Shown in pieces: positions 6,232 through 11,882 of a DNA stretch of 32,576 bases. A program made the position numbers and the translations under genes. Under the pieces are notes generated by a model. The model worked only from the letters and a program-made list of their open reading frames with translations, searched no databases and was not told where the DNA came from. Position 1 is the stretch's first letter, and the number at the start of each line of letters is the position of its first letter. This stretch comes from Cyclobacteriaceae bacterium (lineage in GTDB: Bacteria; Bacteroidota; Bacteroidia; Cytophagales; Cyclobacteriaceae): NCBI GenBank assembly GCA_025455225.1, contig JALOMY010000003.1, forward strand, positions 1-32,576, given 5' to 3'.

Positions 6232-7656
6232 ATGCATTATGACATTGACGTTCTCATAATTTTTTCTGAAAAAGACAACCACTCAACTTCCGGACAAATC
6301 GGTTGGGTTACCCAGCTTAAAAAACATCTGGAACTTGTACTTACCCAGTTAACCCGGTCTAAACCTGCTGTTTTACTTAAAAGTGAATTTGATTCAATCA
6401 CTTCTCCCAATCTGAATAATGCTGCTGTATTGATTGCCATTGTTACACCCGATTTCATTGTTTCATCAAATTGCCTGGATAACCTCAAGCGATTTCAGCT
6501 AGTGGTTCAAAATCAAACTTCAAGAATATTTAAAGTGGTTAAAAGCCGGGTTCCGCTGAGTTCACTACCGCCAATACTCCAGGAATCAGATGAATATGAT
6601 TTGACTCCGGTTAATTCAAGCAACAATAGATTATTTTACCAGGCGGAAGATTCATCCGTGAACGAGGAAGAATTATACTGGCTCCGGGTAACCGATCTTG
6701 CTTACTCTATAAAAGATGAATTAAGTCAGTTGAAGCCGAACGGAACTGAACAAAATTCAAGGAAACTTATACAGAAGACTGTTTACCTGGCAGAAACCGG
6801 CAACGATTTAACGGTTCAGAGACACATTCTTCAGCGGGAACTTATTAAGCATGGCTATCGGGTACTCCCAGAAAAAAAACTACCGGCACATTTTGCTGAA
6901 TTTGAGAAAGCAGTCCGCCACGACCTGGAGGAAGCCCAGTTGGCAATCCACCTGATCGGCTATCATCCGGGTGAGATGCTTGAGGGAACCCAGCTTTCTG
7001 TTTTAGACCTTCAAAACCGAATAGCGTCTGAAAAAAGCAACCGCACAGGAACCGAAAACTTTTCGCGAATGATCTGGATCTCGCCTGAACACATTCGGGC
7101 AGATGATAAACAACGGCAGTTTATTGAAAATCTCAAGCGTGAAACTGAGGTTCAGGAAGGCATTGAAATACTTCAAACACCAATTGAAGAATTCAAAAAT
7201 ATCATCCGGGAAGAATTATCAGAACCTTCGGGAAGTTTTACTCTGCAGGATTCTCAGGGCAAGTCTGTTTACCTTATACACGATCGAATCGATCAGTCGC
7301 TGGTTGATCCTCTTATTAAATCTTTGGAAAATGGTGGCTATACGGTTCTTACACCTCAATTCGATGGAGATATGCTAACGGTACGGCAGCGTCATTTGGA
7401 AAACCTGAGAGCATTTGATTCAGCAATTATCTTTAAAGGAAAAGTAAATCCGCAATGGGTACGCATGAAAATTCTTGACTTGCTTAAAGCGCCAGGCCTT
7501 GGCCGTAATAAACCGGTTATTGGAAAAGCGATTTTAACTTTGGCCGGAAATCCTTTGGAGCTGGAAATTATCAAGAAGCATAATATCAAAGTAGTTGAAA
7601 CAGACCCGTCTCATGCTACCCATAACCTTCAGGCTATTTTAAGTGAATTTTCGTAA
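6232..7656 (+). CDS. TIR-like / DUF4062-like / TIR-like three-module protein
   Basis: Module 1 is TIR-like (DVLIIFSEKDN...GWVTQLKKHLELVL...AAVLIAIVTPDFIVSSNCLDNL). Module 2 resembles DUF4062-type regions of STAND-associated proteins (KTVYLAETGNDLTVQRHILQRELIKHGYRVLP...FEKAVRHDLEEAQLAIHLIGYHPG). Module 3 is SVYLIHDRIDQSLVDPLIKSLENGGYTVLTP...HLENLRAFDSAIIFKG. Confidence 0.7.
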   Translation: MHYDIDVLIIFSEKDNHSTSGQIGWVTQLKKHLELVLTQLTRSKPAVLLKSEFDSITSPNLNNAAVLIAIVTPDFIVSSNCLDNLKRFQLVVQNQTSRIFKVVKSRVPLSSLPPILQESDEYDLTPVNSSNNRLFYQAEDSSVNEEELYWLRVTDLAYSIKDELSQLKPNGTEQNSRKLIQKTVYLAETGNDLTVQRHILQRELIKHGYRVLPEKKLPAHFAEFEKAVRHDLEEAQLAIHLIGYHPGEMLEGTQLSVLDLQNRIASEKSNRTGTENFSRMIWISPEHIRADDKQRQFIENLKRETEVQEGIEILQTPIEEFKNIIREELSEPSGSFTLQDSQGKSVYLIHDRIDQSLVDPLIKSLENGGYTVLTPQFDGDMLTVRQRHLENLRAFDSAIIFKGKVNPQWVRMKILDLLKAPGLGRNKPVIGKAILTLAGNPLELEIIKKHNIKVVETDPSHATHNLQAILSEFS

Positions 7657-9189: not shown

Positions 9190-10134
9190 TTGAGCTACTC
9201 GCCTCCGTACTTATTGTTTAATGCGCACCTGGAAACCATTTATCCTGCTCTGATTCGAAGGGTAAACTTGCCAGATTACCACCGCGAACGAATACAAACT
9301 CCGGACAATGATTTTCTTGACCTGGATTGGTTACTTCTACCATCGCGCAAGTTGGTCATTATTTCACACGGGCTGGAAGGAAACTCATTGCGTGCATACA
9401 TTAAAGGGATGGCGCGGGCACTGATTAGCCAGGGTTTCGATGTGCTGGCCTGGAACTACCGGGGTTGCAGCGGGGAAATTAACCGGCAACTCCGTTTTTA
9501 CCACAGCGGAGCAACAGACGATCTGAATACGGTATTAGACCATGTTCTCAAATCCAATCGGTATGATGAAATCAATCTTATCGGCTTCAGCCTCGGTGGT
9601 AACCTAACGCTGAAATACCTTGGTGAGCAACGCATCCGATCTCCATTGCTAAAACGTGCTGTTGCATTTTCCACACCTTTGGATCTTTACACTAGTTGCC
9701 AGGAAATTTCAAAACCATCCAATTGGATCTATTCAAAGCGATTCCTGGTAAGTCTAAGAAAAAAAGTGATCGAAAAATCGAACGTGATACAGGGATTGGA
9801 TATTCGTGACCTGTCGAAGGTCAAAACACTCATGGAATTTGACGACTATTTTACGGGTCCCGTTCATGGTTTTAAGAATGCCATAGATTACTATGACAAA
9901 TGCAGTTCACTTCAATTCCTTCGAGATATTCAACTACCCGTACTGATAGTCAATGCGTGGAATGATCCCTTTCTTAGTAAAGCATGTTACCCGGTAGACG
10001 AACTAAAGAACCATCCTACTATTCACTTCGAAACTCCTGATTACGGTGGTCATGTTGGGTTCACTCAATTCAATAAAAATGGGCTATATTGGTCTGAACA
10101 GCGCGCTCTTCAATTTTTAACTGAACATGATTGA
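9190..10134 (+). CDS. YheT-type alpha/beta hydrolase
   Basis: LFNAHLETIYPALIRRV, VIISHGLEGNS, WNYRGCSGE, LIGFSLGGNLTLKYLGE and GGHVGF. TTG start. Confidence 0.88.
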   Translation: MSYSPPYLLFNAHLETIYPALIRRVNLPDYHRERIQTPDNDFLDLDWLLLPSRKLVIISHGLEGNSLRAYIKGMARALISQGFDVLAWNYRGCSGEINRQLRFYHSGATDDLNTVLDHVLKSNRYDEINLIGFSLGGNLTLKYLGEQRIRSPLLKRAVAFSTPLDLYTSCQEISKPSNWIYSKRFLVSLRKKVIEKSNVIQGLDIRDLSKVKTLMEFDDYFTGPVHGFKNAIDYYDKCSSLQFLRDIQLPVLIVNAWNDPFLSKACYPVDELKNHPTIHFETPDYGGHVGFTQFNKNGLYWSEQRALQFLTEHD

Positions 10135-10822
10135 ACGCTACAGCATAAGCGCATCAGCACAAGCCGTCAATGATCGATTTCATGTAGATGTTCCGGGCTA
10201 TTATAAACCCCGGTATAATGCAGCCCCTACCCAACTATTACCGGTTATTACGTCTGAATCTCCACAGGGCATTTCACTTTTTTATTGGGGTCGCCCTCCA
10301 TTATGGGCCAGAAATAAATCACTGAGTGAACGAATTATCAATCTCCATGTCGAAAATCTTAACGACCGGCCTGTCTTAAAAAAAGCCTTAATGAAATTCA
10401 GGTGCATTATACCGGCAGACGGGTTTTATGCCTGGAAAAAAATTGGAAAAAAAACCTCGATCCCCTACCGGGTAATAACTAACCAGGAGTTATTTTCTTT
10501 TGCCGCTCTTTGGGAAGAATTCGAAGATGAAACCGGAAGTGTGGTGCATACCTTCAATATCATTACAACAGAAGCGAACGATACATTGAAAAAAATTACA
10601 GAACGAATGCCTGTAATACTTACCAGGGAATCAGAAAAAATCTGGTTAGCCGGTTCTTCCACTGAACCGGAGTTATTGAAGCTTCTTGAAATCTACCCTG
10701 CAGATCGTACAAGTATGTACCCGGTATCACCCCGAATAAATGAAATTAAAAACGATGCTCCTTCTTTATTGATTCCAACACCGCCTGCTGATCAATTCGG
10801 AAACCTTACCTTGTTTGATTAA
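10127..10822 (+). CDS. SRAP (SOS response-associated peptidase, YedK/HMCES) family protein, apparently active-site-degenerate
   Basis: YKPRYNAAPTQLLPVIT, FYWGRPPLWA, RCIIPADGFYAWKK, FNIITTEANDTLKKITERMPVIL. The protein begins MIERYS rather than MCGRY. Confidence 0.88.
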   Translation: MIERYSISASAQAVNDRFHVDVPGYYKPRYNAAPTQLLPVITSESPQGISLFYWGRPPLWARNKSLSERIINLHVENLNDRPVLKKALMKFRCIIPADGFYAWKKIGKKTSIPYRVITNQELFSFAALWEEFEDETGSVVHTFNIITTEANDTLKKITERMPVILTRESEKIWLAGSSTEPELLKLLEIYPADRTSMYPVSPRINEIKNDAPSLLIPTPPADQFGNLTLFD

Positions 10823-11751
10823 TTACCAAACCCATCATCTTCTTCCTCCTCCTTTTTTTCTACCGGAGGTTCCTCGGTTTTCTTGTTCTTCTTGTCAGTT
10901 TTTGATTTCTTCTTGAAAAGTCCTTTCAATCCCTTTTTCTTCTCAGGTTGAACGACAGGTTCCTGTTGCTCAGCGGGTCTCGTATCATCAAACTCATCAA
11001 AATTATAGTCATCCATATCCTGAGATACCTGCTGACCTGGTTCTTCTTCAATTTCTTCCTGCTTCTTTTTCTTTTTGAACAGGCCGCTGAAAAATCCTTT
11101 CAGTCCCTTCTTTTCCTTTTTCGCTTCGGCTTCTTTCATCTCACTCTGTTTCTTTGCCAGCCTGACATCCGGCAGGATCAGCACATCGCGCAGGTACCAT
11201 AAGTAACTGTCTTGTTCAACATTAAAACCTACATCTTTAATGTAATAGGTTGGTTTTGATGGGAGATAACGACCGGTCAATTCATCATACTGAACGGTAT
11301 CGGGTGTATTGTATTTCAATACCCTTACTTCCTGGTCCACACTTATAATATAATCCTGATCCGGGACTTCGGTTGCCTGCTCACTCTGCGGTACATCAAT
11401 GATGTATGTGCTGTCGATAACCGAACGGGCAGCCGCATCCAGTTCTGCAGTAATTGCGGCAGAATCACCCAGGACCAACGAATCAGGTACAATGGGCTTG
11501 ATTGGTTTCGCTTCAACAGTCTTTAAACTCCGTACTTTCTGTTTATACGTAACAGGTTCTGCAATAAGGTATTTGGTTTTACTAACCGATGCCAGTTTTG
11601 GAGTAGAGTCTTCGTTAAAGTAACTGAATTTCTTTCTCAGTTCATCTTTATCGTAGATATAGGCACTTTGAAATGCAGGGCAAACCAACTTTTGAGTGCA
11701 TGAACTCAAAATGATCCAGCCAACCAATATGACAATTATTGCCCTGAGCAT
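10819..11751 (-). CDS. Putative lipoprotein with Lys-rich, low-complexity C-terminus
   Basis: ATG at 11751 gives MLRAIIVILVGWIILSSCTQK with a lipobox. C-terminus is KKEKKGLKGFFSGLFKKKKK...KKKGLKGLFKKKSKTDKK. Confidence 0.65.
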   Translation of the reverse strand: MLRAIIVILVGWIILSSCTQKLVCPAFQSAYIYDKDELRKKFSYFNEDSTPKLASVSKTKYLIAEPVTYKQKVRSLKTVEAKPIKPIVPDSLVLGDSAAITAELDAAARSVIDSTYIIDVPQSEQATEVPDQDYIISVDQEVRVLKYNTPDTVQYDELTGRYLPSKPTYYIKDVGFNVEQDSYLWYLRDVLILPDVRLAKKQSEMKEAEAKKEKKGLKGFFSGLFKKKKKQEEIEEEPGQQVSQDMDDYNFDEFDDTRPAEQQEPVVQPEKKKGLKGLFKKKSKTDKKNKKTEEPPVEKKEEEEDDGFGN

Positions 11752-11882
11752 ATTACCGGTAATCAAACAAAAATAACGAAATTAAACAGAAGTAATTCGA
11801 AATCCAGTCTAATTGTAACCAGCTGACAATCAATTTCTTTATGCCAGAGTATTAAAATTTTACTTAGTGTAGCGCAGGCAGA

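Follow-up and report, generated by a model that had tools for sequence, protein, structure and literature searches.

The SRAP protein of the window lacks the crosslinking triad and retains the family fold

Can a SRAP protein be kept by selection once the residues with which its relatives crosslink DNA have been replaced? This question is raised by a gene for a 231-residue SRAP-family protein at positions 10127–10822 (forward strand, as for all codons below) of contig JALOMY010000003.1 from a Cyclobacteriaceae bacterium (assembly GCA_025455225.1); by the window we mean the whole 32,576-nucleotide stretch of this contig that was analysed. A sequence-only reading had proposed a maintained pseudoenzyme, perhaps a non-covalent binder of single-stranded DNA (ssDNA) or abasic sites. 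Here, we find that the window SRAP is, on well-supported grounds, a maintained pseudoenzyme, and that this proposal best fits its fold, the selection on its gene and the loss of the active site across a lineage.

Crosslinking is generally accepted as what SRAP proteins do. Cys2, the crosslinking residue, was called absolutely conserved when the SRAP family was defined in 2013 (PMC3765255). The window protein begins MIERYS, and the in-frame codons 5' of its start are a stop (TAA, 10118–10120), CTG and AAC, so that its reading frame holds no alternative start giving a Cys2, as had been noted before. In alignment with Escherichia coli YedK, Cys2 is replaced by Ile2 (codon 10130–10132), the catalytic Glu105 by Ala102 (10430–10432) and the catalytic His160 by Thr158 (10598–10600), and Asn75 is retained as Asn72 (10340–10342; invariant in one 40-sequence alignment). 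The N-terminal residues and numbering of YedK follow the E. coli sequence, which is consistent with the aligned part. The sequence-only reading had these four positions right; it overlooked an additional pocket change, Arg77 to His74 (10346–10348), which emerged from the subfamily alignment. The protein thus lacks Cys2, Glu105 and His160 of the crosslinking SRAPs of the YedK/HMCES type and keeps their Asn75, and by descent and fold it belongs to the SRAP superfamily: the PF02586 profile matches over positions 1–213 of 214 with an E-value of 2.5e-52 and 178 bits, against a cut-off of 27.1.

The fold itself is predicted to be intact, in line with the conserved blocks seen earlier in the sequence. 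An AlphaFold2 model, built from a 61-sequence alignment of the window SRAP and its related loci, has a mean predicted local distance difference test (pLDDT) score of 89.9 and a predicted template modelling (pTM) score of 0.87, with residues 227–231 below a pLDDT of 50. A structure search with this model returned 21 PDB matches at E ≤ 0.001, all of them SRAP proteins (best E 1.1e-20); among them are a YedK complex with an abasic-site analogue (6nuh, E 1e-17) and HMCES with DNA. YedK has the same fold (template modelling score of about 0.78 to 6nua), a full-length PF02586 domain, Asn75 and most groove residues in common with the window protein; it lacks the C-terminal Leu-Phe tail of the latter, in which in turn Cys2, Glu105, His160 and Arg77 are replaced. 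Human HMCES (6oov, 5ko9) also shares the fold and itself crosslinks via Cys2. The top PDB match by both sequence and fold is BT_1218 of Bacteroides thetaiotaomicron (2f20), whose matched region, unlike the window SRAP, keeps the Glu (GYFEWRHE) and an RMPAIL block.

The degenerate form is maintained across a lineage

MIERYS-type SRAPs, whose existence elsewhere had been put forward as something to look for, are indeed found as dozens of orthologues in independent assemblies. A genome search gave a match to the window SRAP in 45 of 59 relatives' genomes, with no internal stops, and scanning genome contigs yielded 32 related loci. Named carriers of the same or similar states come from five genera: Ohtaekwangia koreensis DSM 25262, Chryseolinea sp. 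H1M3-3, Chryseosolibacter indicus, Pseudochryseolinea flava and Chryseotalea sanaruensis. Among the close orthologues, almost every one begins M[IVL][ED]R[YF], and the Glu position is occupied by Ala, rarely by Thr, Gly or Cys.

In the subfamily of 74 distinct sequences, collected by the tail pattern Q[FHY]G[NS], the triad is kept in 12, at least one of its residues is lost in 62 and all three are lost in 50. Partial states occur as well (MPGRYS with Glu and His kept; MCERYS with Leu and Ser in their place). The Glu105 position holds Glu in all 12 intact sequences and Ala in 40 of the 62 degenerate ones; that of His160 holds His in 12/12 and, in the degenerate group, Thr, Ser, Tyr, Gln, Asn and others; that of Arg77 is Lys or Arg in the intact group and Arg, Pro, His, Ser, Glu or Lys in the degenerate group, in which the Asn75 equivalent is retained by 50 of 62. 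Five residues of the groove and core (YedK numbering: Asn37, Pro40, Trp61, Trp106 and Pro164) are invariant in 74/74. Arg4 (69/74), Thr149 (70/74) and Arg162 (60/74) are mostly retained and Arg77 is not.

In 16 close pairs the ratio of non-synonymous to synonymous substitution rates (dN/dS, Nei–Gojobori) had a median of 0.05 and a range of 0.036–0.076, a comparison that leaves aside the intact group, where no pair fell within the dS and identity limits. The SRAP gene is under strong purifying selection. On a tree, which was a quick build with many weakly supported forks, the triad-less forms are nested within the group linked to a YheT-type hydrolase gene, with six changes needed for Cys2, three for Glu and three for His. 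Outside the family, but within the same order and class, the related proteins that were read have all four of Cys2, Asn, Glu and His in 17 of 17 cases with a readable start; one further sequence (L187), whose start is not resolved, stands outside this count. A mobile-element or phage origin was considered and rejected: a scan of viral contigs with the alignment of degenerate forms confirmed no relative, and phage and plasmid matches are all below 60% identity, the best among the matches listed being about 37–39%.

The active site was eroded at the native locus

Directly upstream lies a gene for a YheT-type alpha/beta hydrolase (9190–10134, forward strand; PF00561, E 8e-17), which has a GFSLGG nucleophile motif and matches PRK10985 with E 2.1e-65, below the cut-off of that model. 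The end of this gene and the SRAP start share 8 bp (ATGATTGA), an arrangement resembling that of translationally coupled genes. The hydrolase gene adjoins SRAP at almost every degenerate locus and at most of the intact-triad loci examined, so that the pairing spans both kinds. In sister genera it directly precedes canonical SRAPs of the form MCGRYS...E...H (L021, L026, L028 and L165–L169). These MCGRYS-type proteins have intact Cys2, Asn, Glu and His and the tail DQ(F/H)GNYTLF; the locus position is established for the eight loci just named, and L136–L143 join them by type only. Since the same neighbour precedes the intact versions, the active site was eroded in place, and the window SRAP is, judging by gene order, the positional orthologue of the intact-triad enzyme and no spare copy. 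This orthology, like the near-invariant clamp-motif-like tail described below, was missed by the earlier interpretation.

The question had also been raised whether genomes with a MIERYS-type SRAP carry a canonical copy. A PF02586 survey of 17 genomes of the genus showed that in most near-complete ones they do not: the degenerate type is the only SRAP in 12 of the 15 genomes that are at least 95% complete. The idea of a paralogue backed by an active copy is therefore not general. Two genomes (G009, G011) have an additional MCYYKS-type SRAP beside the degenerate one, and another (G007) has a second SRAP seemingly split across two frames (C1:646911-647382), possibly a decaying canonical copy. G012 (87% complete) has a canonical-type SRAP only, and the genome from which the window comes (82% complete) has, beside the window SRAP, one distant canonical MCYDKS protein with Asn, Glu and His intact.

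Crosslinking chemistry is probably lost

We infer strongly, and with good support from the alignments, that crosslinking and catalysis have been lost in the window SRAP, which of the catalytic residues retains only the one whose loss matters least, Asn. Methionine aminopeptidase acts according to the residue at position 2, and Ile2 should leave Met1 uncleaved. As position 2 of the degenerate group is Ile, Pro, Val, Cys, Leu or Gly, no processed N-terminal amine appears to be preserved there.

Could some chemistry nevertheless be left? A weak covalent activity, with a Schiff base at the N-terminal amine and abasic-site lyase activity, has a precedent in the YedK C2A variant, in which both were found (PMC9436759), and retention of Asn72 would fit a residual lyase. 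However, with Met1 in place the amine would be moved by one residue, position 2 varies without regard to the rule of Met removal, and Glu105 is lost; the lyase rate of YedK C2A E105Q is 0.002 in comparison to 0.05 for C2A, about 25-fold lower (PMC9436759). We regard such an activity as improbable. A repurposed active site, in which new chemistry was built within the old pocket, had been suggested as well; Ala102 is near-fixed in the MI[ED]R group, and in most degenerate members Gly3 has given way to Glu or Asp. When a replacement catalytic residue was sought in the 74-sequence alignment, however, no nucleophile- or base-type residue had become fixed anew among the triad-less sequences, and the sole column at least 90% fixed there and rare in the intact group, Leu214, is not of a catalytic type, which leaves this suggestion less supported and, to us, very improbable. 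The simultaneous alteration of three catalytic residues in the window copy might also point to a decaying gene or to an assembly or base-calling error hiding a Cys codon. Dozens of open orthologues with recurrent states in independent assemblies and isolates, free of internal stops, and the dN/dS of about 0.05 rule out both sequencing error and pseudogene, and we give them practically no weight.

The C-terminal tail resembles a clamp-binding motif

The window SRAP ends in DQFGNLTLFD (10790–10819, forward strand), a putative beta-clamp-binding motif with the core NLTLF at 10802–10816. Every subfamily member ends in the tail DQ[FHY]G[NS][LYF][TSRI]LF (a few have Asn in place of Asp), Leu229 and Phe230 are invariant in 74/74, and the model shows residues 227–231 as disordered. 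The C-terminal clamp-binding consensus is QLxLF (PMC4549789). Endings of the form [QN]xxLF occur in only 3 of 288 non-SRAP open reading frames of the flanks and the window, all three encoding DNA polymerase IV (QLRLF or QLKLF). Of 30 other SRAPs in these genomes, 9 have endings such as QLSLF, QLDLF, QLGLF or QGSLF, which match this consensus or come close to it. As a control, the genus's own Y-family polymerase was inspected, and a clamp-type tail is absent from it. Clamp binding by the window tail is plausible from its sequence, and the tail suggests that SRAP proteins of this group act on the replication clamp.

Clamp-motif-like endings (QLSLF, QLDLF, QGSLF, GNLTLF) are frequent in both intact and degenerate SRAPs of these Bacteroidota (the window, L069, L075, L076, L077, L081, L083, L087, L094 and L095). 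The tail was also considered as a genome-wide repeat and rejected as such: the GNLTLF DNA pattern has 1–2 matches per genome, similar to the control, and only the SRAP match is meaningful.

A reversible binder at replication forks is the favoured mechanism

The mechanism that we consider best, with a probability of roughly 55%, is that of a clamp-tethered non-covalent binder of ssDNA or abasic sites. The window SRAP would no longer form the thiazolidine crosslink, its groove would still hold ssDNA or an abasic site without a covalent bond, and the NLTLF-type tail would dock on the replication clamp; the protein may then act at replication forks by reversible shielding or recruitment instead of by suicide crosslinking. 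More tentatively, we propose that in one bacterial lineage the suicidal SRAP crosslinker was replaced at its native locus by a protein of this kind, which reads ssDNA or abasic sites reversibly while tethered to the clamp. If this is true, SRAP proteins can be conserved for recognition and positioning at forks rather than for the crosslink. A lineage whose SRAP, often the sole one, is under strong selection minus the chemistry would be a natural separation-of-function experiment, and the usefulness of non-covalent binding to abasic sites or ssDNA by itself becomes testable.

Several points weigh against this mechanism. The window tail has Asn in NLTLF where the QLxLF consensus has Gln. Conservation of Q-x-G-N/S in the tail is circular, as this was the selection pattern, and that of Leu-Phe and its neighbours is independent of it. 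Arg77, which we presume to be a DNA-contact residue, is not retained, and the constant partner gene encodes a hydrolase, not a repair protein. Another explanation is that the SRAP fold left DNA work and serves the upstream YheT-type hydrolase, perhaps by regulating it or by binding its substrate. The two genes lie side by side, often with an overlap, at almost all degenerate loci and in most of the intact relatives examined, and the hydrolase retains its GFSLGG motif. However, the same pairing is found with a fully canonical SRAP in the sister genera, so a hydrolase role leaves the triad loss unexplained, and retention of the clamp-like tail also counts against it; we hold this role to be unlikely.

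Among known systems close to the window SRAP are the SRAP-like proteins linked to UmuC-like polymerases, for which a role as polymerase-binding regulatory subunits has been proposed (PMC12926913); compared by description only, these have Y-family polymerase genes as neighbours and the window SRAP a hydrolase gene. No SRAP lineage without the triad is described in the literature searched, which left out most subscription papers, and the portions of the HMCES literature covered contain nothing bearing on clamp binding or a crosslink-independent mechanism.

Other genes near the SRAP locus

A reverse-strand gene (10819–11766) converges on the SRAP gene, and the two overlap by 4 bp at the SRAP stop; its product has no Pfam or NCBIfam match, and the gene is syntenic in many relatives. 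At three related loci (L039–L041), the 6 kb flanking the SRAP gene include a DNA polymerase IV gene on the other strand. Further upstream in the window, a 474-residue protein (6232–7656) matches only TIR_2, and that below threshold (E 5.6e-4; 20.8 bits, cut-off 28); it is conserved in L038 and L046.
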